Source: Actinomycetospora soli (lineage in GTDB: Bacteria > Actinomycetota > Actinomycetes > Mycobacteriales > Pseudonocardiaceae). From it: a stretch of DNA of 64,000 nucleotides. Within the stretch, counting starts at the first letter, position 1; each line of letters opens with the position of its first letter. Location of the stretch: contig NZ_JAJNDA010000003.1 in assembly GCF_021026295.1 (NCBI RefSeq), positions 248,001 through 312,000 of the forward strand, in the 5' to 3' direction. A model generated the notes under the pieces. It did no database searches. It was not told the origin of the DNA and saw nothing but the letters and a program-made list of their open reading frames with translations. Positions 2,314 through 61,704 of this stretch are shown here, one piece after another. Made by a program: the position numbers and the translations under genes.

Positions 2314-2409
2314 TCAGTGGCGACAGGCGCTGGAGGAGACCAGCAGCAGGTCGACGTGCAGACGCGACGTCAGCAGTGCCGGGATCAGCACCTCGGTCGG
2401 TCGGCTCAC
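2314..2409 (-). CDS. Leader peptide 1 (HVDL...C type)
   Basis: This short reading frame encodes about 31 residues ending TSRLHVDLLLVSSSACRH and stops 171 nt before the DszC-like gene. It belongs to the twelve-member family in this window: one or two basic residues, HVDL, six to nine residues, then Cys near the end. Small Cys-ending leader peptides next to sulfur genes have been noted in other actinobacteria. A role in attenuating downstream expression is inferred. The start is uncertain: GTG at 2407-2409 or GTG at 2389-2391. Confidence 0.75.
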   Translation of the reverse strand: MSRPTEVLIPALLTSRLHVDLLLVSSSACRH

Positions 2410-2560
2410 GGGCCTCACCGAACCGGCACACCGACGGCGTGTCAACGGATCTCCTGCCGGAGAGAGGTCGCGGTCACATCCGCTTTCCTTCGGCTTGCTC
2501 CGACGTCGGCCGGATGACGACGATGGCGGCCCGCCGACCCGCCCCGACGAGGTGAGACAC
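2410..2560. promoter_or_regulatory. Divergent leader region
   Basis: Leader 1 (minus) and leader 2 (plus) begin on either side of these 151 bases, so the region must contain two divergent promoters. I see no clear -10/-35 pair or shared operator. The segment GAGGTGAG (2549-2556) is the probable ribosome binding site of leader 2. Confidence 0.45.
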
Positions 2561-2635
2561 GTGCCCGGACGCCTGGTGCGCCGCCTGCACGTCGACCTCC
2601 GGCGGCGCTCGAGCGCGGCCTGTCCGCGCCGCTGA
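2561..2635 (+). CDS. Leader peptide 2 (HVDL...C type)
   Basis: The 24-residue product contains RRLHVDLRRRSSAACPRR. GTG at 2561 follows GAGGTGAG by 4 nt. It ends 95 nt before the dodecin gene and is therefore the first translated frame of the dodecin transcript. Confidence 0.78.
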   Translation: MPGRLVRRLHVDLRRRSSAACPRR

Positions 2636-2730
2636 CCGTCCCGCGACCGGCCCCGGTGGGCCCTCGTCCGCGGCGCGCCGTCGCCCGCCCGGGCGTCGGT
2701 TCCCGACCCCTCGACCCCCAGGAGCTCGCC

Positions 2731-2946
2731 ATGGCGGACACCACGTACAGCAAGACCGAGATCGTCGGCACCTCCGAGAAGGGGGTCGACGACGCGATCC
2801 GCGGCGCCATCTCCCGCGCCTCGAAGACCCTGCAGGACATCGACTGGTTCGAGGTGACCGAGATCCGCGGCCACGTCGAGAACGGCGAGGTCGGCCACGT
2901 GCAGGTCACCCTCAAGGTCGGCTTCGCGCTCACCGACACGAAGTGA
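2731..2946 (+). CDS. Dodecin flavoprotein
   Basis: The 71-residue protein has the length and motifs of dodecins: KTEIVGTSEKGVDDAIRGAI, then LQDIDWFEVTEIRG with the flavin-stacking tryptophan, then GHVQVTLKVGFAL. Dodecins form hollow dodecamers that bind and buffer free flavins. AGGAG sits 6 nt before the ATG. Its position is notable because a leader of the sulfur family precedes it and a second leader plus an FMN-dependent monooxygenase gene follow. It may therefore hold FMN for the many FMN-dependent sulfur monooxygenases encoded nearby. That link is inferred; the family assignment is strong. Confidence 0.93.
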   Translation: MADTTYSKTEIVGTSEKGVDDAIRGAISRASKTLQDIDWFEVTEIRGHVENGEVGHVQVTLKVGFALTDTK

Positions 2947-3003: not shown

Positions 3004-3063
3004 GTGCCGCTCCTGACGCGCCGGCGTCACATCGACCTCGAGCGGGTCTGCTCCGCGACCTGA
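3004..3063 (+). CDS. Leader peptide 3 (HIDL...C type)
   Basis: The 19-residue peptide carries TRRRHIDLERVCSAT. The usual HVDL is HIDL here, and the Cys is four residues from the end. GGAGG lies 3 nt before the GTG. It stops 49 nt before the SsuD-like monooxygenase gene, so that gene has its own leader in addition to any readthrough from dodecin. Confidence 0.75.
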   Translation: MPLLTRRRHIDLERVCSAT

Positions 3064-3112: not shown

Positions 3113-4243
3113 GTGCCCGTCGAGTTCCTCGGTATCGCCGCCACCCACGACGGGTCGGAGACGGGGGCCCGCAGCGGCCCCGCCTTCGACCCCGAGTACA
3201 CGTTGCGCCTCGCGCGCGCCCACCGCGACCACGGCTGGGACCGCGTGCTCACCGCCTACGGGTCGGGCAGCCCCGACCCGGCGCAGGCCGCCACCTACAT
3301 CCTCGACCACGTCGAGGACCTGCAGCTGCTGGTCGCGCACCGACCCAACCTGTCGATCCCCACGTTCGCGGCGAAGACCTTCGCGACGATGGATGCGATC
3401 AGCGGGGGCCGCGTCACCGTCCACGTCATCACGGGCGGCAGCGACCACGAGCAGGCCCGCGAGGGCGACCGGCTGTCCAAGGACGAGCGGTACGGCCGCA
3501 CCCGCGAGTACATGCAGATCCTGAAGCAGGCGTGGACCCGCAGCGAGCCCTGGGACTACGCGGGCGAGCACTACGCCTTCGAGGACTTCGTCGCCGACGT
3601 CCGCCCGCTGCAGTCACCCCGGCCGAACCTGAGCTTCGGCGGCTCGTCGGCCGCGGCCTACGCCGTGGGCGGCGCCGAGGCCGACATCTACGCCCTGTGG
3701 GGCGAGCCGCTGGCGGACACCGCCGAGCAGATCCGCACCGTGCACGCGGCCGCCCGGGCCGCCGGCCGCACGACGATGCCGCGCATCCAGGTGGCGTTCC
3801 GCCCGATCCTCGGCGTCACCGAGGAGGCGGCGTGGGAGAAGGCGTACGCCACCGTGGCGCGGATCGAGGAGCGGACGCAGGGCGGGGCGGTGCCCCTGAC
3901 CAACCGGCACCGGCTGCAGAACCCGGAGAACGCCGGCTCCCAGCGCCTGCTCGCCGTCGCGACCCGGGGTGAGCGGTTCGACCGCGCGCTGTGGACCGTG
4001 ACGGCGAAGGCCACCGGGGGCGGCGGGAACTCGACCGCACTCGTCGGGACGCCCGAGACCGTCGCCGCCGCGCTCGTGGACTACTGGGACCTCGGCGTCG
4101 ACGTCCTCTCGGCGCGCGGATACGACCTGCTCGCCGACGCCGAGGAGTTCGGCCGTGAGGTCATCCCGCTGGTCCGCGCCGAGGTCGCCCGCCGGGAGGC
4201 CGAGGGGCGGCCGCGCGGTGTGGACACGCTGACCGCGGCCTGA
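3113..4243 (+). CDS. FMNH2-dependent monooxygenase, SsuD-like (LLM class)
   Basis: The 376-residue protein is a bacterial luciferase-like (LLM) flavin monooxygenase. It starts VEFLGIAATHDGSE and includes AISGGRVTVHVITGGSDHEQAREGD, the block that shapes the FMN and sulfonate pocket in SsuD-type enzymes, and SFGGSSAAAY. It lacks the TPTGS.CEDAW segment with the cysteine of true SsuD (compare 22523-23593), so its substrate probably differs from simple alkanesulfonates. I chose GTG 3113 because GGAG lies 7 nt upstream and the protein then begins like its homologues. The upstream frame from 3065 overlaps the leader region. It converges with the next gene, with a 3-nt gap. Confidence 0.87.
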   Translation: MPVEFLGIAATHDGSETGARSGPAFDPEYTLRLARAHRDHGWDRVLTAYGSGSPDPAQAATYILDHVEDLQLLVAHRPNLSIPTFAAKTFATMDAISGGRVTVHVITGGSDHEQAREGDRLSKDERYGRTREYMQILKQAWTRSEPWDYAGEHYAFEDFVADVRPLQSPRPNLSFGGSSAAAYAVGGAEADIYALWGEPLADTAEQIRTVHAAARAAGRTTMPRIQVAFRPILGVTEEAAWEKAYATVARIEERTQGGAVPLTNRHRLQNPENAGSQRLLAVATRGERFDRALWTVTAKATGGGGNSTALVGTPETVAAALVDYWDLGVDVLSARGYDLLADAEEFGREVIPLVRAEVARREAEGRPRGVDTLTAA

Positions 4244-4246
4244 CGC

Positions 4247-5341
4247 TCAGGCGCGGAGACCGGCGGCGCGCCCGGCGTCGTCGGGACCCCACAGCGTCGT
4301 CGACACCTCGCGGCGCACCAGCGGGATCACCTCCTCGGCGAAGCGCGCGAGGACCTCCTGCTGCTCGCCGTGGGGCAGCACGGGGTTGATCGACACCGAC
4401 TGCAGGTCGTGGCGGTACGCCTTGTGGTAGTCGAGGATCTTCTCGGCCACGCGCTCCGACGTCCCGACGAGCGCCGGCCCGTGCGCGACGGCCTCCTCGA
4501 TCGTCGTGAACGACATCGTCTTGCCCGTGCGCGGGTCGCCGGCGTGGGCGGCGGCGAGCTTCGCGGCCATGGCCTCGTAGATCGGCCGGTACTGCCGGAC
4601 CGCCTGCTCGTCGGTCGCCGCGAGGTACAGCCCGCCCGAGCCCGACCCGACGTAGCCGACGGCCGGGTCGTGGCCGTGCTCGGCGAGCTTCTCCCGGTAG
4701 CGATCGATGAGCACGAGGTAGGCCTCGCGCGGCTGCAGGGCGTTCGCCGTCATGAGCGGGTCGCCCCAGCGGGCGGCGAGGTCGACGGCGTCGGTGGAGG
4801 TCGCCGACCCGTGCCAGATCCGGAACGGGCCGTCGAACGGGCGCGGATGGGTCGTGACGTCGTGCAGGTCGGCGTGGTGCGTGCCCACCCAGTCCACGTG
4901 CTCGGAGCGCAGGAGGCGCCGGAGGAGTTCGTAGTTCTCCCGGAGGTACTCGTACTGCTTGCCGATCTCGAGGCCGAACATGCCGAAGTGGCGGTCCTCG
5001 TTCCCCTTGCCGACGACGATCTCCAGGCGACCGCCGGAGAGCTGGTCGATCGTCGCGTAGTCCTCCGCGACGCGGACCGGGTCGAGCAGGGAGAGCACCG
5101 TCACCCCGGTCGAGAGCAGGATCCGCTCGGTGGCCTGGGCGAGGGCGCCGAGCAGCACGGTCGGCGACGAGGACAGGAAGTCGCCTGCGTGCCGCTCCCC
5201 CACGGCGTAGGAGTCGAAGCCGAGCGCCTCGGCGTGCACGGCGGTCCGCACCACCCGGTTCAGGCGCTCGTGCGCCGAGAGGATCTCCCCCGTGACCGGG
5301 TGCGGGAGGTGGGGGACGATGTCGAGGACCTGGAACCGCAT
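4247..5341 (-). CDS. LLM class flavin-dependent monooxygenase
   Basis: The 364-residue protein belongs to the luciferase-like family. It begins MRFQVLDIVPHLPHP, has YAVGERHAGDFLSSSP and then SGGRLEIVVGKGNEDRHF at the flavin site, and ends with a long helix region. The subgroup with 'GERH' and 'vGkGne' is commonly annotated as putative FMN-dependent luciferase-like monooxygenase, and no substrate is assigned. Its inclusion in the sulfur set rests on leader 4, which ends 42 nt upstream. AGGAAGG precedes the ATG. It needs reduced FMN from an unlinked reductase. Confidence 0.82.
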   Translation of the reverse strand: MRFQVLDIVPHLPHPVTGEILSAHERLNRVVRTAVHAEALGFDSYAVGERHAGDFLSSSPTVLLGALAQATERILLSTGVTVLSLLDPVRVAEDYATIDQLSGGRLEIVVGKGNEDRHFGMFGLEIGKQYEYLRENYELLRRLLRSEHVDWVGTHHADLHDVTTHPRPFDGPFRIWHGSATSTDAVDLAARWGDPLMTANALQPREAYLVLIDRYREKLAEHGHDPAVGYVGSGSGGLYLAATDEQAVRQYRPIYEAMAAKLAAAHAGDPRTGKTMSFTTIEEAVAHGPALVGTSERVAEKILDYHKAYRHDLQSVSINPVLPHGEQQEVLARFAEEVIPLVRREVSTTLWGPDDAGRAAGLRA

Positions 5342-5383: not shown

Positions 5384-5455
5384 TCAGCGACAGCCCTGCG
5401 CCGTCACGCGGAGCAGGTCCACGTGACGGCGGCGCGTCAGCACGGGGCGGGGCAC
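5384..5455 (-). CDS. Leader peptide 4 (HVDL...C type)
   Basis: The 23-residue peptide ends LTRRRHVDLLRVTAQGCR. GTG at 5453-5455 is the first start in frame. The stop is 42 nt before the LLM monooxygenase gene. Confidence 0.78.
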   Translation of the reverse strand: MPRPVLTRRRHVDLLRVTAQGCR

Positions 5456-5654: not shown

Positions 5655-6986
5655 TCACCGGTCGCAGCCGGGCAGTCCTTCCCTGGTCCCGACAGCGAGC
5701 GGATCCAGGTCCCGCGGGTCCGGCGTCGGCACCCACCGACCGTCGCGCTGCGCGTAGGTCCAGCCCGGTCCGCGCGCGACCAGCTGCGCCACGGCCACGA
5801 CGAGCCGGTCGACGTCGTCGGCGGTGCCCGCCAGGCCCAGGCTCGCGCGCACGGCGTCGCGGCCGCCGGTGAGGCGGTCGAGCAGCGGGTGGGCGCAGAA
5901 GCGGCCGTCGCGCACGCCGATGCCGTGCTCGGCGGACAGGGCCGCGGCGACGAGCCCGGCCGGCAGGGTCTCGACCTCGAACGCCACCACCGCCACCTGG
6001 TCCGGCGCGTCGTCGAAGCACTCGAGCAGCCGCACCCCCGGCACGTCGACGAGACCGGCGCGCAGACGGGCGGCGAGCTCGCGCTCGTGCGCCGGGACCG
6101 CGCTGTCGATGACGGGCTCGAGCGCCCGGCACGCGGCGGCCAGCGCCACGGCGCCGAGCAGGTTCGGTGTACCGCCCTCGTGGCGCTGCGGGGCGGGCAG
6201 CCAGGCGGTGTCGGTCTCCCCGTCGGTCACCGCGACCGACCGGACCGCTCCCCCACCCGCCAGGTGCGCGGGCGCAGCGTCGAGCCAGTCCCGCCGTCCG
6301 ACGAGGACCCCGGCGCCGTACGGCGCGTACAGCTTGTGGCCGGACAGGGCGAGGTAGTCGGCGCCCAGGGCGGCGAGGTCGACCCGGCGGTGCGGGGCGA
6401 GCTGCGCGGCGTCGACGGCGACCCGGGCCCCGGCGGCGTGGGCGATCTCGACGATCGTGGTCAGCGGCAGCGTCTCGCCGGTGACGTTGGAGGCCCCGGT
6501 GACGGCGAGGAGGGCCGGCCGGTGGGTCCGGAGGCCGTCGCGCAGGGCGTCGAGCGTGCCGCGCACGGTGTCGCCGGCGGCCACGACGTGGTGCGGGGTG
6601 TGCCGCCAGGCGAGCAGCGTCGCGTGGTGCTCGAGGTCGAGGGTGAGCACCGGGCCCGGCACGGCGCGGGCGAGCAGGGCGACCGCGTCGGTGGTGTTGC
6701 GGGTGAAGACGACGACGTCGTCGGTCCGGGCACCCACGAACCGCCCGACCGTCGCGCGGGCCGACTCGAGCAGCGATGTGCACACCCGGGACGTGTAGCC
6801 CGCGCCGCGGTGGACGCTCGCGTAGTAGGGCAGCACCTCCGCGACGTGGTCGGCGACGGCCTGCAGCGGCGGCGCGCTGGCGGCGGCGTCGAGGTCGGCG
6901 TACCGGACGCGGCGCCCGTCGACGAGCGGGACCTCGAGGTCCGCACCGACGGTGAGGGGCAGGGCAGGGCTCAGGACGGCAGTCAT
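5655..6986 (-). CDS. SufS/CsdA-like class V PLP enzyme, copy 1
   Basis: The 443-residue protein is a class V aminotransferase-fold PLP enzyme related to cysteine desulfurases. The PLP lysine is K218 in LSGHKLYAPYG, the cofactor aspartate is D192 in VDAAQLAPHR, and a cysteine (C364 in VRDGRFCAHP) occupies the place of the SufS active-site cysteine. ATG 6986 is chosen because GGAG lies 6 nt upstream. The product is close in design to the second copy at 53987-55345 (ASN.TG, DAAQLAPHR, HK.YAP.G.GVL). It may release sulfur from cysteine or a related thiol. It is not in a suf/isc operon, so a catabolic or sulfur-scavenging role is more likely than Fe-S assembly. No HVDL leader precedes it. Confidence 0.78.
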   Translation of the reverse strand: MTAVLSPALPLTVGADLEVPLVDGRRVRYADLDAAASAPPLQAVADHVAEVLPYYASVHRGAGYTSRVCTSLLESARATVGRFVGARTDDVVVFTRNTTDAVALLARAVPGPVLTLDLEHHATLLAWRHTPHHVVAAGDTVRGTLDALRDGLRTHRPALLAVTGASNVTGETLPLTTIVEIAHAAGARVAVDAAQLAPHRRVDLAALGADYLALSGHKLYAPYGAGVLVGRRDWLDAAPAHLAGGGAVRSVAVTDGETDTAWLPAPQRHEGGTPNLLGAVALAAACRALEPVIDSAVPAHERELAARLRAGLVDVPGVRLLECFDDAPDQVAVVAFEVETLPAGLVAAALSAEHGIGVRDGRFCAHPLLDRLTGGRDAVRASLGLAGTADDVDRLVVAVAQLVARGPGWTYAQRDGRWVPTPDPRDLDPLAVGTREGLPGCDR

Positions 6987-7232
6987 GACGGTTCTCCGTG
7001 ACCGTCGGGGACCCGACGGTTCGGGTCCGCGCTTGCCGGGTCGCGGGTGTCGCGCCGGCCTGGTCATCACCCGGAGCACCCCGCCGCGGAGGAGGGTTGC
7101 CGACCAGCGAGCCGGGGCTTGACGCTGGTACTCGTGACCTGGTCGAGGACGCTAACACGGTCGACGACCGCCGCCGACCCCCGTGATCCGCTTCACCGCC
7201 GACGGGACCGCCGGCAGCTGGACGTCGCGGAC

Positions 7233-8890: not shown

Positions 8891-10030
8891 CTACCCGGTC
8901 GCGACGCCCTGGAAGAGCAGCGCGGCGAGTCCGAGTCCGACCGCCAGGTTGAACACGGTCGCGGCCCCGAACACGCCGACCGGACGCCAGCCCGCCTCCC
9001 GCAGCGGTCCCGGCCGGAACTCGAGGCCGATCGAGATGAAGGCCAGGGTGAGGAAGAAGTTCCGGAGGGCGTTGACGTCGCTGATCGCGGCCTTGCCGGC
9101 GGAGCCGACGAGACCGAGGTAGACGGTCGCGATCACGGAGGCGGCGACGAACCCGAGGACGAACTTCGGGAACCGGTGCCACAGGTCGGCCCAGCGCGGG
9201 CGGGCGGAGCCCGCGGTGCGCTCGACCCGGAACGCGAAGTACGCGGTCAGGGCGACCGCGACGAGCCCCATGAGCGCGTTCTGCGTGACCTTGACGATCG
9301 TCGCGATCTGCAGCGCGTCCTCGCCGGCGAGCGCGCCCGCCGCACTGACCGCGGCCGTCGTGTCGATGTTGCCGCCGATCCACGCGCCCGCGACGGCGGG
9401 CGGGAGCCCGAACAGCGTGGCCAGCCACGGCAGCAGGAAGATCGAGGGCAGGGCGAAGACGATGACGAGGCTCGCCGAGTACGCCAGCTGCTCCTTGCGC
9501 GCCTGCACCGCCCCGGCCGCCGCGATCGCCGCGCTGACCCCGCAGATGGACACGGCCGACGCGAGGAGCGCCCGCAGGCGCTGGTCGACGCCGAGCTTCC
9601 CGGCGAGCCACCACGTGAACGCGAAGACCGCGCTGACCAGCACGATCGCCTGGATGATCGCAGGCAGGGCGGCGCCGGCGATCACGCCCAGGTCGATCGA
9701 GGCGCCGAGCAGCACGAGGCCGGTCTTGATGAAGAACTCGGTGCGGAAGGCGCCGGAGAGCCGGTCGCGCTGCCCGGTCGCGGACAGCACGAGGTTGCCC
9801 AGCAGGCCCAGCGCGATGGCGTAGATCGGGTACTCGACGCCCTCGGCGATCCCGGACCAGGCGGTGCCCTCGGCGGCCTCGGGGACCGCCTCGGAGAGCC
9901 ACGTGACCAGCAGCGCGAGGGCGACGACGAGGACCACGCCGGCCACGGTCCACGGCCAGGTCGCGCGGCCGTCGGGGGTCTGCGGGAGGGGGCGGTCGGC
10001 GGCGTCCGCACTGGTGTCGGAGGTGCTCAT
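8891..10030 (-). CDS. YeiH-family membrane transporter (putative sulfate exporter family)
   Basis: The 379-residue product is a multi-spanning membrane protein of the YeiH/UPF0324 family. It has about ten hydrophobic segments, GLVLLGASIDLGVIAGAALP, the motif SICGVSAAIAAAGAVQARKEQ, and the glycine-rich GAWIGGNIDTTAAVSAAGAL that is typical of the family. Members are often called putative sulfate exporters and sit near cysteine or taurine genes. The substrate is not firmly known. ATG 10030 overlaps the stop of the upstream micro-membrane protein (TGATG), so the two are translationally coupled behind leader 5. An export or uptake role for sulfite/sulfate or a sulfonate product is plausible. Confidence 0.83.
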   Translation of the reverse strand: MSTSDTSADAADRPLPQTPDGRATWPWTVAGVVLVVALALLVTWLSEAVPEAAEGTAWSGIAEGVEYPIYAIALGLLGNLVLSATGQRDRLSGAFRTEFFIKTGLVLLGASIDLGVIAGAALPAIIQAIVLVSAVFAFTWWLAGKLGVDQRLRALLASAVSICGVSAAIAAAGAVQARKEQLAYSASLVIVFALPSIFLLPWLATLFGLPPAVAGAWIGGNIDTTAAVSAAGALAGEDALQIATIVKVTQNALMGLVAVALTAYFAFRVERTAGSARPRWADLWHRFPKFVLGFVAASVIATVYLGLVGSAGKAAISDVNALRNFFLTLAFISIGLEFRPGPLREAGWRPVGVFGAATVFNLAVGLGLAALLFQGVATG

Positions 10031-10176
10031 CAGGGCACCAGCCAGCCGGGGAAGGCGCCGGCGAGGACCAGGACGATCAGCAGCAGACCCACGACGGTCG
10101 CTGCCCAGTCCTCGGAGAGGGCGATGGATCGGACTCGGTCGACGCGCGCGTCGGCGGCGTCGTCGTTCTCGGGCAC
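10030..10176 (-). CDS. 48-residue single-pass membrane protein coupled to YeiH-type gene
   Basis: GTG at 10174-10176 opens a 48-residue frame: an acidic N-terminus (PENDDAADARVDRV), a short amphipathic stretch (RSIALSEDWAA), then one transmembrane helix (TVVGLLLIVLVLAGAFPGWL). Its stop overlaps the YeiH-type start (TGATG), and leader 5 ends 42 nt upstream. I do not recognise a family. The size, topology and coupling suggest an accessory subunit or stabilising small protein of the transporter. It is shorter than most annotation cut-offs and is easily missed. Confidence 0.65.
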   Translation of the reverse strand: MPENDDAADARVDRVRSIALSEDWAATVVGLLLIVLVLAGAFPGWLVP

Positions 10177-10218: not shown

Positions 10219-10287
10219 TCAGGAGCGACAGAGCGCCGCGGCCGTGCGGCAGAGATCCACGTGACGACGCCACACGGCCACGAGCAC
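10219..10287 (-). CDS. Leader peptide 5 (HVDL...C type)
   Basis: The 22-residue peptide ends WRRHVDLCRTAAALCRS and has two cysteines, one directly after HVDL. It stops 42 nt before the 48-residue membrane protein that begins the YeiH operon. GTG at 10285-10287 is the most upstream compact start. No strong ribosome binding site is visible. Confidence 0.75.
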   Translation of the reverse strand: MLVAVWRRHVDLCRTAAALCRS

Positions 10288-10390
10288 GTGCGGCGAGGCG
10301 GACACAGGTGCACTGAAGTGCACGAGCCGGACGGATGTCAACGACGGGTGATCGACCGGGCACCCCGCGCGTGTGATTCCCTGCTCCCCC

Positions 10391-19875: not shown

Positions 19876-19950
19876 ATGCTCCGGGGCTGGCTCCTGACGT
19901 GGCGACGCCACGTGGACCTCATGCGCCTCGACGCGACGACCTGTCGGTAG
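19876..19950 (+). CDS. Leader peptide 6 (HVDL...C type)
   Basis: The 24-residue peptide has LTWRRHVDLMRLDATTCR at its C-terminus. It starts with ATG after GGGGG and stops 37 nt before the ssuC-like gene, so it opens the sulfonate transporter operon. Confidence 0.8.
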   Translation: MLRGWLLTWRRHVDLMRLDATTCR

Positions 19951-23731: not shown

Positions 23732-23827
23732 ATGGGCCCCGTGGCCCAGGATCTCGTGCGCCGTCTGCACGTCGACCTGTGTCGCGTCCCGGCGATGGGC
23801 TGTCGCCCCGCCGCCGCGCTCGTCTGA
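23732..23827 (+). CDS. Leader peptide 7 (HVDL...C type)
   Basis: The 31-residue peptide contains VRRLHVDLCRVPAMGCR, followed by an extra PAAALV tail. It ends 129 nt before the OsmC-family gene. ATG at 23732 is preceded by GGG only. With repeat B copy 3 it accounts for most of the 363-base space between ssuD and the OsmC gene. Confidence 0.75.
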   Translation: MGPVAQDLVRRLHVDLCRVPAMGCRPAAALV

Positions 23828-27749: not shown

Positions 27750-27812
27750 TCAGCGACAGAGCGCGCTGTCCACCCGCCCGTGGTCCACGTGCCGCCGCCG
27801 GGTCAGACCCAC
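27750..27812 (-). CDS. Leader peptide 8 (HVDH...C variant), internal to an operon
   Basis: The 20-residue peptide MGLTRRRHVDHGRVDSALCR has His in place of the Leu of HVDL. GTG at 27810-27812 lies 3 nt after the stop of the upstream permease gene, and the leader ends 37 nt before cysC. The position between two operon halves would let cysC and the sulfotransferase be tuned separately from the transporter. Confidence 0.75.
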   Translation of the reverse strand: MGLTRRRHVDHGRVDSALCR

Positions 27813-30734: not shown

Positions 30735-30821
30735 TCAGGAGGACAGACAGGCGCAGCTGTAGACGCGGCCGTAGTCCACGTGGCGGCGGGCCACGAGACG
30801 CACGTCGGCTGCTGCGGTCAC
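30735..30821 (-). CDS. Leader peptide 9 (HVDY...C variant)
   Basis: The 28-residue peptide has VARRHVDYGRVYSCACLSS at its end, with two cysteines two residues apart and Tyr in place of Leu in HVDL. GTG at 30819-30821 is the most likely start. It heads the transporter-cysC-sulfotransferase operon, which therefore has two leaders (this one and leader 8). Confidence 0.76.
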   Translation of the reverse strand: MTAAADVRLVARRHVDYGRVYSCACLSS

Positions 30822-32144: not shown

Positions 32145-32219
32145 TCAGCGACAGGCGGCGGACCAGCAGCGGCACAGGTCGACGTGCTCACGCGAGACGA
32201 GCGTGACGCCGGGTGCCAT
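32145..32219 (-). CDS. Leader peptide 10 (HVDL...C type, three Cys)
   Basis: The 24-residue peptide ends VSREHVDLCRCWSAACR, the most cysteine-rich leader in the window. ATG at 32217-32219 is the start. Together with the 155 bases up to the permease start it fills the divergent intergenic region, in which I see no clear operator. Confidence 0.8.
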   Translation of the reverse strand: MAPGVTLVSREHVDLCRCWSAACR

Positions 32220-52908: not shown

Positions 52909-53007
52909 GTGACCAGCCCCTCCGCCCGTCGTCACCTGCAGCCCGGCCTGGTCTCCCGCCGGCACGTGGACCTGCTGCGCCACGCGTCCGCACTCTGTCG
53001 TCGCTGA
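52909..53007 (+). CDS. Leader peptide 11 (HVDL...C type)
   Basis: The 32-residue peptide ends VSRRHVDLLRHASALCRR. GGGAGGAG lies 6 nt before GTG 52909, the best ribosome binding site among the leaders. It stops 77 nt before the TauD gene. With the bases 52783-52908, where divergent promoters must lie but none is clear, it accounts for the space between the two genes. Confidence 0.82.
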   Translation: MTSPSARRHLQPGLVSRRHVDLLRHASALCRR

Positions 53008-54011: not shown

Positions 54012-55345
54012 CACTCCTGCGCCGGCAGCGGCCGGTAGGACAGCCGCGGCCCGTCGACCGCGATCGCCGTCAGTCCGGCGACCAGGCGGTCGACGTCCGC
54101 GCGGGTGTTCTGCAGACCGAGGCTCGCGCGGACGACGCCGTAGCTCGCGAGCCGGTCCCCCGCCGCGATCGCCGCGACGACCCGGGCCTGCTCGGCGTCC
54201 TCCGCCCCCACCCACCGACGGACCAGCCGGTGGTTGCAGATCGTCCCGGCGCGCACCTCGACCCCGTGCTCGGCCTCGAGCACCGAGGCGACCAGCGCGT
54301 GGTGGCGGCCCTCGACGTGGAAGGGCACGGCCCCGATCCGGTCCTCGGTGCGGTACGACTCCTCCTCGACCGCGAGCCGCACCCCGGGCGTCCCCGCCAG
54401 CTGGTGCACCAGGTAGGCGGTGAGTGCGCGCTCGTGCGCCTCCACGGCCGGCCACCCGGTGTCGAGCAGGGCCGTCGCCGCCGCCCCGAGCGCGACGATC
54501 CCGGTCGCGTTCCAGGTCCCGGTCTGGTGCCGCTCCCCCGGCGGGGCCCACAGCACCGCGTCGTCGTCGAGCATGTCGATCGAGCCACCGCCCGGGTCGA
54601 CCGGGGCGCGGTCGAGCAGGGTGCGCGGCAGCGCGAGCACGCCGAGCCCGAACGGCGCGTAGACCTTGTGCGCGGAGAACGCCAGCGCGTCCACGCCCGC
54701 GGCCGCCATGTCGATCGCGCGGTGCGGGGCGAGCTGCGCGGCGTCGACGAACAGCAGCGCCCCGGCGTCGTGCGCGAGGCTCGCGAGCGTGACGAGGTCG
54801 GGCCGGTGCCCGGTCAGGTTCGACGCCCCCGTCACCGCGACCAGCCGCACCCGCCCCCGCAGCCCGTGCAGGGTCTCGGCGAGGTGCCCCAGGTCGAGCG
54901 CCCCGGTGTCGTCGGCCCGCACCTCGACGACCCGCGCCGCGCTCTGCAGCCGCCACGGCAGGTTGTTCGAGGTGTGCTCGATCTCCGAGGTCACGACGAC
55001 GTCGTCCGGCCCGAGCTCGAGCAGCCGCGCGAGCTGGTTGATCGCCGCGCTGGTGTTGGTGGTGAACAGCAGGTCGTGGTCGGCGGGGGCGCCGAGGAAC
55101 CGGCGGATCGCCGCGGTCGCCTCCTCGACGAGCTCGACGGTCACCCGCGCCCGCGGTCCGGCCCCCCGGTGCAGCGCGCCGTAGGAGCCGAGCATCGCGG
55201 TGACGGCGTCGAGGACCGCCTGCAGCGGCGGGGTCGTCGCGGCGTTGTTGAGCTGCGCGACCGGCACCGACCGGCCGTCGGGAAGGCTTGCGGGACGCCC
55301 GGCGTCGTGGACGCGGGGCAGGACGGGGCGGGTCAGCACGGTCAC
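53987..55345 (-). CDS. SufS/CsdA-like class V PLP enzyme, copy 2
   Basis: The 452-residue protein has the PLP lysine K227 in FSAHKVYAPFGLGVL, the cofactor Asp D201 in VDAAQLAPHR, the ASNLTG substrate motif, and a cysteine (C370 in RAGTICNHRLV) at the SufS nucleophile position. It resembles the copy at 5655-6986 more than house-keeping SufS proteins in its shared AVTGASN and LAPHR blocks. GTG 55345 gives a homologous start, with GAGG 9 nt upstream. It is the last gene of the operon with the thiosulfate-type transporter and methanethiol-oxidase-like protein, 135 nt after the small secreted protein gene. It may take persulfide sulfur from that system. Confidence 0.78.
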   Translation of the reverse strand: MTVLTRPVLPRVHDAGRPASLPDGRSVPVAQLNNAATTPPLQAVLDAVTAMLGSYGALHRGAGPRARVTVELVEEATAAIRRFLGAPADHDLLFTTNTSAAINQLARLLELGPDDVVVTSEIEHTSNNLPWRLQSAARVVEVRADDTGALDLGHLAETLHGLRGRVRLVAVTGASNLTGHRPDLVTLASLAHDAGALLFVDAAQLAPHRAIDMAAAGVDALAFSAHKVYAPFGLGVLALPRTLLDRAPVDPGGGSIDMLDDDAVLWAPPGERHQTGTWNATGIVALGAAATALLDTGWPAVEAHERALTAYLVHQLAGTPGVRLAVEEESYRTEDRIGAVPFHVEGRHHALVASVLEAEHGVEVRAGTICNHRLVRRWVGAEDAEQARVVAAIAAGDRLASYGVVRASLGLQNTRADVDRLVAGLTAIAVDGPRLSYRPLPAQECYVPDARA

Positions 55346-55480
55346 GGGTGAGTCCTCGGGGGATGGCGAGCGTGGGGAGGGTCGGAGGTTCCCGACGGCG
55401 GGCCGGGGCGGGACGAGCCCCGCCCGGGTGGCCGGCGGGGGAATCCGGGGACCCGGGCGGGGCGTCGTCACGGCTCCGGC

Positions 55481-55827: not shown

Positions 55828-57096
55828 TCAGCAGCGCGAGTCGGACGGCGTGGGGTTGCCGAGCCCGAAGAGCGGGCGCAGGGCGAGGCCGGCGACGGTG
55901 CCGACGATCGCGGTGAGGCCCCAGAGCCAGCCGTGCAGGCTGAAGGAGGCGATGCCGGAGAAGTAGGCGCCGATGTTGCAGCCGCCGGCGAGGCGGGCGC
56001 CGTAGCCCATGAGGATGCCGCCGAGCAGGGCCGCGACGACCGTCCTCCACGGGATGGAGCGGTGCAGGACGAACGCGCCGCCGAGCGCGGAGGCGACGAG
56101 GGCGCCGGCCATGATGCCGACGTCGAGCACCGAGACGCGGTCGGCGAGGACCGGCCCGGCGAGCGACTTCGCGTTCGCCGGGACCTGGAAGTACGCCCAC
56201 GAGGCCGGATTCGCGCCGAAGAGCTCGGCGATCTTCGAGCCCCACAGGCCGAAGGCCGACGTCACGCCCCAGGGCGCGCCGGACACGACGAGCACGGCGG
56301 CGTTGAGCCCGCCGAGCACGAGCGCGCCGACCCACAGCGGCCAGGAGCCGCGCAGGACGCGCCGCCAGCCGTGGTCGGTGGGCGGCGAGTCGACCGGCGG
56401 CGGGTTGCGCCGCCTCGCCACGACGTACGTCAGCGCGACGATGCCGGCCATGGCCAGCAACGACAGCGCGAGCGCACCCGGGAAGCCGAACACGGCGGCG
56501 AGGTCGACCGTCGGGCCCTGGGGCACGGTCCTCGTCCAGAACGTGAACGTCGCGATCGAGAGCATCGACCCGAGGACGAAGCCCACGAGCGTGTAGACGA
56601 TCGAGGACTGGCCGGAGCCGACCGCGAACAGCGTGCCCGAGGCGCACGAGCCGCCGAGCTGCATCCCGACCCCGAACAGGAACGCGCCGACGAACAGCGG
56701 GATCCCGACGGGGTTGAGGAAGACGTTCGCCTGCCCGGTCAGGGTGAGGCCGAACGGCACGATGACCGCGAACAGCGTCGTCGCCGTGGCGAGCATGAGC
56801 ATGTGCGCCCGCAGCGCCGCGCCCTGCCCCACGCCGACCAGCTGGCGCCACGCCCCGGTGAAGCCGAAGCGCGAGTGGAACAGCGTGAAGCCGAGCGCGA
56901 GACCGAGTCCGAGGACGCCGGCCATCCGCGGCCCGGCGACGGCCCAGACGGCGACGGCGAGCGCGACCCAGACGACCAGCCCGATCGCGACGACCCGCCG
57001 GTTCGCGGGCGGCGCCTCCGGGGCCGGGGTGAACGCGGGCGCGGTCTGGAAGCGCCCGAGGAGACGCCGTGGGGGCGCCTCGCCGAGGGTGGTCAT
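55828..57096 (-). CDS. YeeE/YedE (TsuA-type) thiosulfate/sulfur-compound transporter
   Basis: The 422-residue membrane protein has about ten helices and the paired motifs of the YeeE/YedE family: FGVGMQLGGSCASGTLFAVGSGQ with C151, and MGYGARLAGGCNIGAYFSGIASFSLHGWLWG with C373. In TsuA such cysteines pass thiosulfate across the membrane. It ends with an unusual C-terminal Cys (SDSRC). ATG 57096 is 19 nt after the preceding stop. In this operon it may import the sulfur product (sulfide, thiosulfate or persulfide) made outside the membrane by the oxidase-like protein, for use by the PLP enzyme. Confidence 0.85.
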   Translation of the reverse strand: MTTLGEAPPRRLLGRFQTAPAFTPAPEAPPANRRVVAIGLVVWVALAVAVWAVAGPRMAGVLGLGLALGFTLFHSRFGFTGAWRQLVGVGQGAALRAHMLMLATATTLFAVIVPFGLTLTGQANVFLNPVGIPLFVGAFLFGVGMQLGGSCASGTLFAVGSGQSSIVYTLVGFVLGSMLSIATFTFWTRTVPQGPTVDLAAVFGFPGALALSLLAMAGIVALTYVVARRRNPPPVDSPPTDHGWRRVLRGSWPLWVGALVLGGLNAAVLVVSGAPWGVTSAFGLWGSKIAELFGANPASWAYFQVPANAKSLAGPVLADRVSVLDVGIMAGALVASALGGAFVLHRSIPWRTVVAALLGGILMGYGARLAGGCNIGAYFSGIASFSLHGWLWGLTAIVGTVAGLALRPLFGLGNPTPSDSRC

Positions 57097-57115: not shown

Positions 57116-59167
57116 TCACGAGAGCGGTCCGGACATCGGGACGAGCGCGCCGCCGGGCAGCCAGGCCCCGGCGCGGTCCCCGTGGTTCATCCCGGGCATG
57201 CCCGGCATGACGTCGATCGTCGCGGCCCCGAACAGGCGGACGTCGCCGTCGGGACGGCCCTGCTCCCGGGCCCACGCGAGGTAGCCCGAGGACGACGGGG
57301 CGGCGTCGTCGCTGATGGTGGTGAGCAGCGCGGCGTACCCACGCGGCTCCGCCTCCTGCGGGGTGAAGCCCAGCGGGAGCATCGTCGACGCCCCCGCGGA
57401 GAGCACCCCGGAGGTGAGCAGCCACGGCGCGAGGAACACGCCGCCGGTGAACGTCGGCGTCCGCGTCGCCTGCTCGGTGGTCCCGGTCAGCGTGCGCCGG
57501 GCCTGCGCCCAGCCGGACGTGACCAGGAGGCCGTCGTCGGGCGTCGGGGCGGCACTGACCGGCAGCCCGATCCGGGCCGCGGTGTCCCGCACGAGGGCGT
57601 CGGCGGCCCTCGACCGGGGCGAGTCATCGCCCACCAGGAACAGCGACGGCAGACCGCGACCGCGCAGGTCGGTGACGGCGAGCGTGAGGGCCCGCGCATC
57701 GGCCGGCGAGAGCGCCGTCGACGGGCAGGCGACCCCGCGGCCACCGCCGAGCAGGTCGCCGAGCAGCGCGTCCGCGCACTCCGGCCCGTCCGGCCCGGCC
57801 AGCACCGCGGGGTCGGCGGGCCCGGTCGGACCGATGACGACGGGGACGGTGGCCGTCCCGCCGGGACCGGTGAGCGTGAGCTCCCTCGTGTCGGCGGGGA
57901 CGTCGAGCAGCGCCCACCGGCCGGGCGCCCCGTCCCGTGGCGCGAACGTGGCGTCCTGCCCGCCGGCGGCGATCGACCAGCCCGCCCCGGGCATGTCGTG
58001 CCCGCCGTGCATCCCGCCCATGGCGCCCATGCTGTGCGACGGCGGGCCGTCGGAGGGAGCCGAGGACAGTCGGATCAGCGTCGGTCCACCCGCCGTCGGC
58101 GCCACGAACAGCGCCATCGACTGGCCCGCGACGGTCACCGGCCGCACCAGCAGCCGGCCGGGCTCCGGCGACTGCGGAGAGGTCGGCAGGGCGCCCAGCA
58201 CCGCGACGGCGGCGAGGCCCAGACCCAGGGCGCCCGCGGCCACGCGGACGAGTTCCCGACGACGGGTCGCGCGGCCCCGTGCCGGCAATGCGTCACTGCT
58301 GTCACCGGACGCCAGGGACACCACATCGTGGGTGGCCGGGGTCCCGCCGCCCGACGATGGGGCGCTGCTGTCACTGGGTGCCAGCAGTGACGCATTGCCG
58401 GCACCGGAGGTGTGCGCCGCCGCCAGGGACAGGGCGCCGGCCAGCAGGGGCAGCAGGAGCTGGGCCAGGACGACGGGCCCGCGGGCGGTGCCACCGAGCA
58501 GGTCGGACACCGTCCACGGCCCCTCGACGACGAGCAGCACGACCCCCAGCGCGGTCGCCGCCGCCGATGCGATCACGGCGTACCGCGAGGCCCGCACGGT
58601 GAGCCCGAGCGCGACGACCAGCACGACCGCGGCGAGCAGTTCGAGCACCATCGCCGCGCCCCAGCGCACGATCGCGATCTCGACCGCGACGGCCACCGTC
58701 AGCAGCACCGAGGCGACCCGACCCGCCGTCGGGAAGGAGCGCAGGACGAGCACCGCGCCGACGAGCGCGGCATGGGCGAGGGCGGCCCACCAGGCGGCGT
58801 CGCCGATCCCGGCGGTGACGGCGGCGGCCGTGATCGCGACGCCGGCGGCCGGCGCGACGACCCGGACGCGGGGCGCGCCCACGAGCACCGGGCCGGCCAC
58901 GAGGGCCGAGGCGACGACGAGCAGGACGCGGGCGAGGACCGGCCCGACCCCGGCGGCGGAGCCGACGAAGGAGAGGACCACCGGGCTCACGGCGGGGGTG
59001 GCGGAGGTGGCGATCAGCCCGACGAGGGCGATCACGGTCGCGAGCCCGAGCAGGCCCGCGATCAGCAGGGTCACCCGGCGTCCCGGAAGGGTGGGCGCCG
59101 GGCCCGCTCCGACCCCGTCCTGCGACGGGGTCGGAGCGGGAGCCGAGAGGGTGCTACTTGATGTCAC
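57116..59167 (-). CDS. Multi-spanning membrane protein with Met/His-rich (copper-type) extracellular domain
   Basis: The 683-residue protein has eight hydrophobic helices in the first 270 residues (resembling CopD-like membrane domains), a linker containing intragenic repeat F ([11 protein letters not shown]), and a ninth helix at about 305-325. A large extracellular region follows. It includes HSMGAMGGMHGGHDMPG (about 375-392) and, near the end, MPGMPGMNHG (about 651-660), both typical of copper-binding proteins. It also has a NAD-free alpha/beta-looking part (SLFLVGDDSPRSRAADALV). GTG 59167 overlaps the stop of the oxidase-like gene by 14 nt. Copper delivery to that protein is the best guess. 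I do not recognise a named family. Confidence 0.62.
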   Translation of the reverse strand: MTSSSTLSAPAPTPSQDGVGAGPAPTLPGRRVTLLIAGLLGLATVIALVGLIATSATPAVSPVVLSFVGSAAGVGPVLARVLLVVASALVAGPVLVGAPRVRVVAPAAGVAITAAAVTAGIGDAAWWAALAHAALVGAVLVLRSFPTAGRVASVLLTVAVAVEIAIVRWGAAMVLELLAAVVLVVALGLTVRASRYAVIASAAATALGVVLLVVEGPWTVSDLLGGTARGPVVLAQLLLPLLAGALSLAAAHTSGAGNASLLAPSDSSAPSSGGGTPATHDVVSLASGDSSDALPARGRATRRRELVRVAAGALGLGLAAVAVLGALPTSPQSPEPGRLLVRPVTVAGQSMALFVAPTAGGPTLIRLSSAPSDGPPSHSMGAMGGMHGGHDMPGAGWSIAAGGQDATFAPRDGAPGRWALLDVPADTRELTLTGPGGTATVPVVIGPTGPADPAVLAGPDGPECADALLGDLLGGGRGVACPSTALSPADARALTLAVTDLRGRGLPSLFLVGDDSPRSRAADALVRDTAARIGLPVSAAPTPDDGLLVTSGWAQARRTLTGTTEQATRTPTFTGGVFLAPWLLTSGVLSAGASTMLPLGFTPQEAEPRGYAALLTTISDDAAPSSSGYLAWAREQGRPDGDVRLFGAATIDVMPGMPGMNHGDRAGAWLPGGALVPMSGPLS
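58285..58398. repeat. Intragenic repeat F, inverted pair in the copper-motif membrane protein gene
   Basis: GCAATGCGTCACTGCT (58285-58300) and its complement in 58366-58398 form an inverted pair about 65 nt apart. They encode SSDALPARG and [11 protein letters not shown] in the linker between helices 8 and 9. The second unit is the one shared with the DHA2 exporter (50910-50942). Confidence 0.83.
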
Positions 59168-61013
59168 CGTCGGCCGTCACGAACAGCTGGGAGTGCGGCT
59201 TCGCGTTGCCGAACGGGCCGTGCGGCCAGTTCGCGCGGTTGAAGTCGACGCACGGCTCGCCCGTGACCTCGTCCTTGAAGTCCCGGTCCAGGCTCATGTC
59301 GCCGTCCTTCGCGATGTCCACCATGCAGACGCGGTGGTCGCCGTCGAGGCCGGTGCGGGCCACGAAGTAGTTCGCGGTGGACAGGCGGGTCGGGTTCTCG
59401 GTCTCACGGTAGAACCCGTCCTGGCCGAGCTCGAGGTTGTCCAGCGCGCCCCAGTGCGGGCCACCGGCGGTCTCGCCCGGGTTGATCGGCAGGGCGCTGC
59501 GCAACGTCGGGCAGCCGGGGCCCGGGTCGGTCTCCTGGGCCGTCGTCTCGATCGAGCAGGTGGCGTTCACGCCCGCGCCGACCAGCTTGGAGATGTCGAG
59601 GGCGATGACGCCGCCCGCCGTGCCCTTGTCGTCCTTGCCGAGCGAACCCGGCTGACGACCCATCACCGCGTGGTAGAGCGTCTTGTCGTCCGGGCTCGTC
59701 TGCAGCCAGCCACCGTTGAGGCCGGAACCGGTGTCCGCCTTCGGGTCGATCTGCTTGACCGCCGCGGTGAGGTCGTAGACCTCGCGCCACACCGGGTCCT
59801 TGGCCGTCATGTCGGCCGTGTAGTAGATCGCCCCGCCCTGCATGGTCATGGCGAACGCGCCCTTGTTGCCCGGCTGGTTGGTCACCGTGGTCTCCATGAC
59901 CGCACGGTTCTCGTTGTGCAGCGGGTCCTCGGCGCCCGAGCGGGGGCCGACCGGCAGGTACTTCACCGACCTGACCTCGGGGTGGTCCGGGTCGGAGATG
60001 TCCCAGGTGCGGACCGTGGTGCGCCGCAGGTTGGGCGACGGCGCCTTGACCGGGTCGAGGATGATCGTCCGCGGCTCGGCGTAGTCACTGGTCACCATGG
60101 TCCTCAGGTCCTCGCGGACCTGGATCCCGTGCGGGTTCGCGCAGGTCGGGTTGGACAGCGCCGGCAGGTTGAGGCACTGCTTCGGGTCCTCCGGCGTGGT
60201 GGTGGCCGCCGGGGCCTCGACGATCTTCTTCCCGGTCGGGTCGAAGCGGACGACCTCGCCCGGGGCGCCCGCGAAGCCGTTGCCCGAGCGGACCTCGCCG
60301 TTCGTGTAGCGGCACGGGCCGGGCGCGATCGGACCGCCCATGTAGGTGCCGTAGGCGTTGCCGTCCTTGGTCACCCAGTAGGCGTCCGGGACCGAGCCGC
60401 ACGCGGTCTGGGTGGGCAGGCTGATGCCCGACAGGCCCAGGGCCGGCAGCTTCGAGACGTCGAAGACGTAGGTCGCGGCCGTGAACAGGCCTCCCGCGAA
60501 GATCTTGTTGCCCTTGTGCCACGCGTACTGCATGTGGTGGGGCTCGTTCTCCACGAGGGGGCCGACGGTCGCGGTGTTGACGACCTTGCCGTAGGTCGGC
60601 GAGCCCTTCGTGGCGTCGATGACGGCCATGAAGTCCGGGCCCGGAGCGGCGTTGCGCACCGTGTCCAGGGGCTTGGCGAGCGAACCCGGCAGCTTCTTGA
60701 CCTGCGGGACCGCGGTGTCGGCGACGTTCTCGTCACCGGCCCACACGACGAGGTACTCGGGGCGGGTGCCGATGCCCCGCGCCGCGTCCTGGGAGGCCTT
60801 CAGCGCCGACGGGTCGACGTGGTTCTCCACCCAGTAGTCCTTGCCGTCGGACCCCTGGATCGTCTGGCGCTGCGGGACGATGTCCGCGCTCGCGGTCATG
60901 GCGGTGGGGACGACGACGGCGCCGGCGATCACGGCGAGCGCGCCGACGACGGTGGCGATCTTCGCCCGGACCGAGAGCCGGTCCAGGAGGCGACGGTGCC
61001 GGCCGCCGCTCAC
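59154..61013 (-). CDS. Secreted SBP56/methanethiol-oxidase-like protein
   Basis: The 619-residue protein starts with a Tat-like or Sec signal (GRHRRLLDRLSVRAKIATVVGALAVIAGAVVVPTAMTASA). The mature part has the marks of the selenium-binding protein 56/methanethiol oxidase propeller: PDFMAVIDATKGSPTYGKVVNTATVG, NEPHHMQYAW (metal-site histidines), TYVFDVSKLP, NPHGIQVREDLRTMVTSDYAEPRTIILDP, RTWDISDPDHPEVRSVKYLP and LYHAVMGRQPG. Methanethiol oxidases convert methanethiol to formaldehyde, hydrogen sulfide and peroxide, need copper and can be periplasmic. GTG 61013 overlaps the preceding stop (GTGA), and the copper-motif gene overlaps its end. It is longer than usual (about 470), and the substrate is inferred. 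Confidence 0.72.
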   Translation of the reverse strand: MSGGRHRRLLDRLSVRAKIATVVGALAVIAGAVVVPTAMTASADIVPQRQTIQGSDGKDYWVENHVDPSALKASQDAARGIGTRPEYLVVWAGDENVADTAVPQVKKLPGSLAKPLDTVRNAAPGPDFMAVIDATKGSPTYGKVVNTATVGPLVENEPHHMQYAWHKGNKIFAGGLFTAATYVFDVSKLPALGLSGISLPTQTACGSVPDAYWVTKDGNAYGTYMGGPIAPGPCRYTNGEVRSGNGFAGAPGEVVRFDPTGKKIVEAPAATTTPEDPKQCLNLPALSNPTCANPHGIQVREDLRTMVTSDYAEPRTIILDPVKAPSPNLRRTTVRTWDISDPDHPEVRSVKYLPVGPRSGAEDPLHNENRAVMETTVTNQPGNKGAFAMTMQGGAIYYTADMTAKDPVWREVYDLTAAVKQIDPKADTGSGLNGGWLQTSPDDKTLYHAVMGRQPGSLGKDDKGTAGGVIALDISKLVGAGVNATCSIETTAQETDPGPGCPTLRSALPINPGETAGGPHWGALDNLELGQDGFYRETENPTRLSTANYFVARTGLDGDHRVCMVDIAKDGDMSLDRDFKDEVTGEPCVDFNRANWPHGPFGNAKPHSQLFVTADGDIK

Positions 61014-61387
61014 GCGTAGTCCCCCGGTCCGGAGCCGGGGATGATCGCCGTCGAACGCTGCACCGAGTTCAGGAGGCCGTTCAGCGGGACGCCGAGCAGC
61101 ACGGTCTCCGGCTTCGCCCCGTACTGCGCGCCGACCGGCACCGGCGTCGGGTCGTCGGGGGTGGTGGCGCTGTCGGAGCCGGGGATCGAGGAGAGCCCGC
61201 CACCGACGACGGCGGTGAGCGGGTCCGGCCCGAGACCGGCGCCCTCGGTGACGCCGTCGGTGGGCAGCGTGGTGGGGAGCGTCGGGAGCTCGGCGGCGGT
61301 GGCCAGGCCCGGGGTGGCGGCGAGGGCGGCGAGCGCCGCCAGTCCGCCGAGCGCGACACGGCGCGCCGCTGGTGTCTTCGGGGACAC
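61010..61387 (-). CDS. Small secreted protein of the methanethiol-oxidase-like operon (1)
   Basis: The 125-residue product starts SPKTPAARRVALGGLAALAA with a signal peptide ending ATPGLATA before AELPTLP. The mature part is rich in Pro, Thr and Gly and has LTAVVGGGLSSIPGS and VLLGVPLNGLLNSVQ. It has no cysteine and no known domain. GTG 61387 has GAGAGG 9 nt upstream. It is translationally coupled to the oxidase-like gene (GTGA) and is the first gene after leader 12. It could be a chaperone or surface partner. The role is unknown. Confidence 0.68.
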   Translation of the reverse strand: MSPKTPAARRVALGGLAALAALAATPGLATAAELPTLPTTLPTDGVTEGAGLGPDPLTAVVGGGLSSIPGSDSATTPDDPTPVPVGAQYGAKPETVLLGVPLNGLLNSVQRSTAIIPGSGPGDYA

Positions 61388-61617
61388 TGCGAGAACCTCT
61401 CTGATCGGGGAACGGGTCGAACACGCGGTGCTCGACGCCACGCCTGCCAGGGAGGACGTCGGGCACCACGGATCCACCCCGCACGCGGCGTCCCGCGTCC
61501 GCGTCGTCACACGCGGACGCGGGGCGCCGTTCTCCTGCGGGGAGGGGTCCGGCGGCCGCCGGGACGGGCGAGAGGGCCGCCGGGTCGGGCGTCGGCCGGG
61601 AAGAGGAGTCGGGGAAC

Positions 61618-61704
61618 TCAGCCGGCCGACACGGCACACAGCGCGCTCGCCTGCAGACGCAGGTCGACGTGGCGTCGCATCGCGAATCGCCGGGCGGTGT
61701 GCAT
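61618..61704 (-). CDS. Leader peptide 12 (HVDL...C type)
   Basis: The 28-residue peptide contains FAMRRHVDLRLQASALCAVSAG, read here in part. It begins at ATG 61702-61704, and an internal ATG would give a 20-residue form starting MRRHVDL. It ends 230 nt before the first operon gene, the longest gap among the leaders. The gap 61388-61617 has GC-rich inverted pieces that could form competing hairpins, although none is clear by eye. Confidence 0.78.
   Translation of the reverse strand: MHTARRFAMRRHVDLRLQASALCAVSAG

Follow-up and report, generated by a model that had tools for sequence, protein, structure and literature searches.

A 64,000-nucleotide stretch of an Actinomycetospora genome (bases 248001-312000 of contig 33, in an assembly of 6.52 Mb and 69 contigs; hereafter the window) carries twelve short open reading frames (ORFs), mostly in front of genes of sulfur type, and these leaders almost certainly belong to a known class of cysteine attenuators. 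Counting the His of their H-[VI]-D motif as residue 0, the conserved core stands at an exact distance from one codon, +11, which generally encodes Cys and is mostly TGT. Key residues held at an exact distance from a single cysteine codon, as in ribosome-jamming peptides, look like a new feature, and on balance we favor a reading in which these are cysteine attenuators whose nascent chain assists the pausing of the ribosome.

Twelve leader ORFs of a known class

A six-frame scan of the window for H[VI]D[LHY] close to an ORF end returned exactly twelve sites, at the coordinates listed in a first-pass annotation of this DNA. All twelve small ORFs claimed there were present when codons and possible starts were read, its minus-strand positions being ORF ends, and the codons of the HVD(L) motif vary at third positions as it described. 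DNA of 74% GC is rich in short ORFs, but chance or an annotation artefact has virtually no standing as their origin and is already refuted by the counts. The mean number of such ORFs was 0.00 in 60 order-1 Markov windows and 0.05 (maximum 1) in 60 order-3 windows, versus 12 observed; a strict pattern gave 11 observed versus 0.00 and 0.03, respectively, and five permuted motifs had 0 matches each. Matches at E up to 0.001 to the leader-peptide model NF042934 in 184 of 200 genomes of the order likewise argue against chance.

All 10 window peptides that were scanned gave a match to NF042934 (cis_reg_atten, 'putative leader peptide') at E up to 0.088, and three of them passed the curated cut-off of 27 bits. 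With the leaders numbered LP1 to LP12 by position, LP8 and LP9 scored 16.4 and 16.5 bits in the genome search with this model, below the cut-off. NF042936 (leader_Ms4527A) and NF042933 (leader_Ms5788A) gave weaker matches to most scanned peptides, and no Pfam model matched the leader peptides. The NF042934 hit lines give a name and state no mechanism beyond it. Apart from the order, leader matches at E up to 0.001 were found in 116 of 120 genomes of the family and 10 of 149 of the phylum, and at E up to 0.1 in 18 of 18 genomes of the genus. The first-pass annotation, which had proposed searching related genomes for the motif, was right in its view that Cys leader peptides mark a sulfur regulon, the peptides being of a known kind.

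Across the genome, a model of 40 leader peptides, which includes the genome's own and therefore matches these by construction, gave 21 matches at E up to 0.026, of which 17 lie within 88 kb of contig 33 (221,990-309,689) and twelve of these in the window.

A fixed register between the core and codon +11

The Cys residue was described at first as lying within the last nine residues. The spacing is stricter than that: Cys stands exactly 11 codons past the His in 11 of the 12 window leaders, the exception being the ORF at 3004, with Cys at +7 and its stop at +11. The other 16 spacings from +3 to +19 for H[VI]D in the window had 0-3 cases each, some of them a second Cys of the same leaders. The same register was found in 49 stretches from the genus (0.80 Mb, mostly sulfur islands, chosen for having matches), where a search whose sole requirements were R-x-H-[VI]-D and a stop no further than 32 codons away found Cys at +11 in 117 of 124 leaders; among H-[VI]-D ORFs without the Arg, Cys was at +11 in 0 of 11. 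A wider sample from the family, order and phylum, searched with R-x-x-[VIM]-D-[LFHYWM]-x-R and no condition on Cys, had Cys at +11 in 86 of the 89 leaders left after near-identical ones were removed, although these loci were fetched with NF042934, a profile that itself favors the spacing, and the window and genus counts are cleaner.

From leader to leader, 7 to 17 codons separate the likely start from the core, and so the register is anchored to codon +11 rather than to the start. The His itself is not universal, contrary to its place as a fixed residue in the motif first proposed, for it is replaced by A, F or Y in three leaders of the genome outside the window (L005, L014 and L016), and A, Y and T also occur at residue 0 in the wider sample. 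HVDL is thus one form of a wider core, R-x-x-[VI]-D-L-x-R.

One leader-like sequence of the same genome, at contig 33:237752-237799 on the minus strand, has an intact core, with AGT (Ser) replacing TGT at +11, and runs into a longer frame. Leader-like sequences with AGT at +11 occur in three species (loci L008 and L029, also L064 and L066).

Selection on the peptide

The main set comprised 145 leaders after identical 96-mers were dropped, 129 from the genus and 16 distant. Arg at -2 was present in all 145, Leu at +3 in 126 and Arg at +5 in 131, none of which had been required by the search. In the 129 leaders of the genus the Arg at -2 is written with all four CGN codons (CGT 41, CGC 40, CGA 29 and CGG 19). 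The ratio of nonsynonymous to synonymous differences (pN/pS), computed within and between clusters defined by the downstream gene, was 0.00 and 0.00, respectively, for R(-2) (pS 0.43 and 0.66), 0.24 and 0.42 for L3, and 0.26 and 0.35 for R5. By comparison, it was 1.17 and 1.30 for the linker residues 6-10 and 0.93 and 1.12 for the N-terminal part (-8 to -4). The six-position core as a whole gave 0.13 and 0.12, values that are partly built in as the search pattern fixed H0 and D2 and limited V1 to V, I or L. The first-pass annotation had argued from the third positions for selection on the peptide and not on the DNA alone, and had suggested a dN/dS test; run as pN/pS, that test gave 0.00-0.42 at the search-free positions versus 1.17-1.30 in the linker, which together with an invariant R(-2) in four codons supports the claim. 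An RNA stem within the leader ORF was not supported: among 61 nonredundant leaders of the 129, none of the stems of 4-6 pairs held by at least 15% stood out, the largest z being 2.4.

The codon at +11

At +11 the 145 leaders have TGT in 120 cases and TGC in 25, the reverse of the preference elsewhere, as the other Cys codons of the same peptides are TGT 9 and TGC 78 and those of the window genes TGT 11 and TGC 87. When the leaders are grouped by downstream-gene cluster, with names resting on one Pfam-scanned member per cluster, TGT is the majority codon at +11 in 29 of 30 clusters, and at the other Cys positions of the peptides TGC is the majority codon in 17 of 19. Outside the nitrite/sulfite reductase and MFS transporter clusters, +11 is TGT in 105 of 105 leaders.

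A general AT bias of the leaders was rejected as the source of UGU, since among the 129 leaders of the genus the Cys codon at +4 is TGC by 31 to 1. The idea that UGU is universal was rejected too, with TGC at +11 in 27 of 86 leaders of the wider sample. Pairing of the UGU codon with the spacer between leader and gene was not supported in general, with mixed details, in 100 TGT and 21 TGC leaders. ACAG occurred in 20 of 100 spacers of TGT leaders versus 16.9 in shuffles, and a computed U-to-C swap weakened the best duplex in 40 leaders, strengthened it in 35 and left it equal in 25.

A stop codon at +11

The ORF ends exactly at +11, always with TGA, in seven distinct leaders that have the core as well as Arg at +5; three further rows that stop at +11 but lack this Arg were put down to chance. 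In the genus stretches, the stop positions of distinct R-x-H-[VI]-D leaders are +11 (6), +12 (0), +13 (31), +14 (30) and +15 (31), with some later and none at +5 to +10. Six of the seven come from six genomes of the genus and precede the same monooxygenase gene, recognized by eye in the DNA; LP3 is the window copy, and the seventh is from a distant genome (L106). Two of the six genus leaders (L075 and L077) have no Cys at all. Homologues of the monooxygenase gene (48-74% identity) were found at 26 other loci, one of them from the genus; six have a leader, in every case with TGT at +11, and at the remaining 20 no leader passed the scan. As the homologues' leaders all have TGT, TGA at +11 probably arose from TGT. 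Leaders that end in this way either form a class in which the ribosome pauses at termination or are relics with the core retained. A probable further orthologue, in which the pattern is lost, is found at L070; its leader (L070:5443, minus strand) has a scrambled tail (HVDLEGRPRGLGTRSAA) and is perhaps decaying.

Starts of the leaders

The leaders probably start leaderless, judging by the promoter-like sequence in front of them. An in-frame start was present in 89 of 93 nonredundant leaders, and 67 of the 89 have a -10-like hexamer 5-9 nt upstream, including 11 with an exact TAnnnT. The other two frames have starts in 24 and 12 leaders, with a -10-like hexamer in 8 and 2. A TTGAC-like box lies 28-40 nt upstream in 20 of the 67, compared with 0 at 48-60 nt.

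The twelve leaders and their downstream genes

From leader stop to gene start, the distance is 37 to 230 nt for the 11 leaders measured and 49 nt by coordinates for LP3, bearing out the spacing first noted. The leaders were also said all to precede a sulfur-type gene. By Pfam they mostly do lie immediately 5' of cysteine or sulfur genes, with luciferase-like and ABC families counted as sulfur-type by context rather than by name; LP2, in front of a dodecin gene, and the first gene after LP12, which has no Pfam hit, are the exceptions.

LP1 (2314..2409, minus strand; ...LTSRLHVDLLLVSSSACRH), with TGT at +11 and an uncertain start at the GTG at 2409 or that at 2391, precedes an acyl-CoA-dehydrogenase type gene (895-2142). 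On the plus strand, LP2 (2561..2635; VPGRLVRRLHVDLRRRSSAACPRR), also with TGT at +11, is followed by the dodecin gene (2731-2946), and LP3 (3004..3063; VPLLTRRRHIDLERVCSAT), with TGC at +7 and its TGA stop exactly at +11, by a luciferase-like monooxygenase gene (3113-4243). A second luciferase-like monooxygenase gene (4247-5341) lies behind LP4 (5384..5455, minus strand; VPRPVLTRRRHVDLLRVTAQGCR), a TGT leader that scores 27.2 bits with NF042934, over the cut-off. LP5 (10219..10305, minus strand; ...VAVWRRHVDLCRTAAALCRS; 31.7 bits) has TGT at +11 along with a TGC at +4, and precedes a 48-aa ORF (10030-10176) and then a PF03601 membrane protein gene (8891-10030). LP6 (19876..19950, plus strand; MLRGWLLTWRRHVDLMRLDATTCR), with TGT, stands before genes at 19988-23593 for an ABC permease, an ATPase, a binding protein and a luciferase-like monooxygenase. 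LP7 (23741..23827, plus strand; VAQDLVRRLHVDLCRVPAMGCRPAAALV), for which the ATG at 23732 is an alternative possible start, has TGT at both +11 and +4 and precedes an OsmC-like gene (23957-24439).

Of the minus-strand leaders that follow, LP8 (27750..27812; VGLTRRRHVDHGRVDSALCR), with TGT, is in front of an APS kinase gene (27101-27712), and LP9 (30735..30821; VTAAADVRLVARRHVDYGRVYSCACLSS), with TGT at +11 and TGC at +9, of genes at 27816-30613 for an NMT1-type binding protein, an ABC ATPase and a permease. LP10 (32145..32219; MAPGVTLVSREHVDLCRCWSAACR), with TGT at +11 and TGC at +4 and +6, precedes a gene for a type 3 binding protein (SBP_bac_3; 31150-32052). LP11 (52909..53007, plus strand; ...LVSRRHVDLLRHASALCRR), a TGT leader that scores 35 bits with NF042934, stands before a TauD-type dioxygenase gene (53085-54011). 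LP12 (61618..61704, minus strand; MHTARRFAMRRHVDLRLQASALCAVSAG), with TGT, is followed 230 nt on by the 125-aa ORF without a Pfam hit (61010-61387), then on the same strand by two more ORFs without Pfam hits (59154-61013 and 57116-59167), a PF04143 sulfur transporter gene (55828-57096) and a class V aminotransferase gene (53987-55399).

A leader precedes at least 3 of 79 named homologues of the LP4 monooxygenase gene (L157, L159 and L161). This survey covered 80 loci with L229 left out; the automatic scan found two leaders, ten loci were read by eye, and the leader of L157, whose ORF runs on, was missed by the scan. From such comparisons the leaders appear to be gained and lost faster than the genes. 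L229 is a contig filed as Vibrio cholerae strain 35D, with a gene that ranks among Arthrobacter matches, and the record is probably mislabelled or contaminated.

Also in the window is a SAM-IV riboswitch (7024-7139, minus strand; 100.9 bits), directly 5' of a class V aminotransferase gene (5658-7022), which by its sequence match is a second layer of sulfur control within the island.

Discussion

In the reading we favor, each element would be a short ORF, probably leaderless, and its translation would control the sulfur gene that follows. The ribosome would pause with codon +11 in the A site, the input being a shortage of Cys-tRNA at a codon that is mostly UGU, the rarer of the two Cys codons. 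The nascent chain would assist the pause through R(-2), [V/I](1), D(2), L(3) and R(5), which would then occupy the upper exit tunnel, 12 to 5 residues behind the P site, leaving residues 6-10 free to vary. A paused ribosome would permit expression of the downstream gene; with plentiful cysteine the ribosome would finish and leave, and expression would fall. The class, the register, the selection on the peptide, the codon bias at +11 and the -10 box before the in-frame start are read from the sequence itself. Responsiveness to cysteine is carried over from the published mycobacterial work, and the way in which a pause would open the downstream gene is modeled on that case as well, and the tunnel contacts and the pause are our inference. 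The first-pass annotation had suggested a nascent-peptide sensor, a plausible candidate that fits the fixed register, the pattern of selection and the UGA class.

Were the Cys codon alone sensed, as in pure hungry-codon attenuation, the N-terminal part could serve leaderless initiation or smooth elongation. Mycobacterial leaders are reported to respond to cysteine through their Cys codons, and in leu attenuation a rare synonymous control codon is reported to raise sensitivity, both of which suit such a scheme. Neither a fixed 11-codon register combined with a free linker nor UGA-class leaders that keep the core without any Cys would be expected from it, and the variable distance from start to core makes an initiation signal unlikely; we therefore regard it as rather unlikely, though the most serious of the rivals. 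A role of the released peptide in trans, perhaps through binding to a protein or an RNA, would explain why the core is conserved as amino acids, and a trans-acting leader peptide, peTrpL, has been published. It is hard to see, though, what an exact distance of 11 residues to a codon with synonymous bias would do in trans, and about 20 copies with an unconstrained N-terminal part would be redundant, which makes this account improbable. Least probable of these is an RNA structure or RNA-protein site that is only incidentally translated, for which we see very little room. In its favor, among genus and distant loci, CAGGAG as ribosome-binding site is enriched before leader genes (29 of 119 versus 10 of 157 controls) and AGGAGG is depleted (2 of 119 versus 17 of 157), and the spacers of TGC leaders are rich in GCAG. 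Against it are the four CGN codons of R(-2), pN/pS far below 1 at R(-2), L3 and R5, and the lack of a covarying stem inside the ORF among those tested.

Several observations weigh against nascent-chain-assisted attenuation as we describe it. One of the 21 leaders of the genome (contig 33:237752) has Ser at +11, and LP5, LP7, LP9 and LP10 have extra Cys codons out of register. TGC at +11 is confined in the 145-leader set to the nitrite/sulfite reductase (18 of 22) and MFS transporter (7 of 18) clusters, and in the wider set it accounts for 16 of 24 leaders before the reductase and 10 of 11 before a TauE-type exporter, with one further case elsewhere. The UGA leaders may be relics, as the six leaders before homologues in other genera, all with TGT, would suggest. 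Some details fit pairing of the Cys codon with the spacer: ACAGG (11 versus 5.0) and GACAG (15 versus 7.7) exceed expectation in TGT leaders, GCAG (15 of 21 versus 10.1 in shuffles) and GCAGG (9 of 21 versus 2.3) do so in TGC leaders, mostly of one gene family, and the mean best duplex over the third Cys base is 4.82 versus 4.50. Nor did a shared RNA switch emerge by which a pause could act. The probability that the Shine-Dalgarno (SD) sequence is paired was 0.71 for 119 leader genes versus 0.67 for 150 controls, so that general occlusion of the ribosome-binding site was not significant (p = 0.13). Pairing of the SD to the Cys codon peaked there at 0.296, but at 0.220 with shuffled spacers, and a duplex scan of SD pairing had no focus on the Cys codon. 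These sets, after removal of near-identical sequences and of genes without a usable SD or distance, held 118 leaders for the pairing profile, 121 for the spacers and 119 for SD pairing and duplexes. Single strong helices were seen by eye at LP5 and LP10.

Taken together, we lean slightly toward a contribution of the nascent chain to attenuation, based on the register and the selected residues. No explanation for the conserved N-terminal part of Cys leader ORFs was found in the open-licence literature, and a core at an exact distance from one codon would turn a codon-counting attenuator into a candidate nascent-chain sensor. If so, cysteine would be, like tryptophan, an amino acid whose sensing is aided by the exit tunnel, and in a broad group, given matches in 184 of the 200 genomes sampled from the order. 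The biased choice of codon at +11 offers a simple, testable rule for how leader thresholds may be set. A more speculative extension, which we put forward only tentatively, is a widespread actinobacterial cysteine regulon built on one arrest-peptide scaffold with the tunnel frame of TnaC (12, 8, 5) and an exchangeable A-site codon at +11: UGU at most genes, UGC at the sulfite reductase and exporter, and UGA in a class that needs no Cys, with the codon setting each gene's input and threshold. If true, one peptide motif would give a graded, gene-by-gene response to sulfur.

Comparison with known systems

The critical residues of TnaC are reported as Trp12, Asp16, Ile19 and Pro24, with Pro24 occupying the P site and the UGA stop the A site, and the peptide as sensing free tryptophan and acting through Rho (PMC8429421). 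Counted from the P site, these residues stand at 12, 8, 5 and 0. If codon +11 of the leaders occupies the A site, R(-2), D2 and R5 would be 12, 8 and 5 residues away from the P-site residue, the same three distances, and UGA in the A site is a feature shared with the minor UGA class. The resemblance was recognized only afterwards and involves different residues (Arg in place of Trp and Ile), which counts against reading much into it, and no homology is claimed. As in arrest peptides of the TnaC type, residues at a fixed distance from the P site are combined with a free linker, their critical role being inferred from conservation.

Cys is normally read by a single tRNA, and if one tRNA serves both Cys codons here, slower wobble reading would have to be the reason for UGU. 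The favoring of a rarer synonymous codon at the control position is shared with the leu operon attenuator, where the rare codon CUA at the control site is described as raising sensitivity (PMC1183508). The leu theory rests on isoacceptors, however, and unequal charging cannot explain UGU here if there is one Cys tRNA.

Cysteine-responsive leaderless short ORFs of mycobacteria were reportedly described by Canestrari et al. in 2020. In M. smegmatis, leaderless short ORFs with Cys codons are reported to control downstream genes by cysteine (PMC13236596, PMC9031893, PMC9094748). The present leaders share with these attenuators a leaderless short ORF, Cys codons and a location 5' of cysteine and sulfur genes, and the core RR[AH][VI]D[LF].R is common to genomes of the order with matches to NF042936 or NF042934, where codon +11 is TGT with few exceptions. 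The published mycobacterial type is described as having runs of Cys codons; unlike this polycysteine, the twelve leaders of Actinomycetospora have one to three Cys each and none adjacent, so that contiguous Cys codons were found in 0 of 12. The strict +11 register, the UGU bias and the class with UGA at +11, described here from sequence, go beyond that published type.

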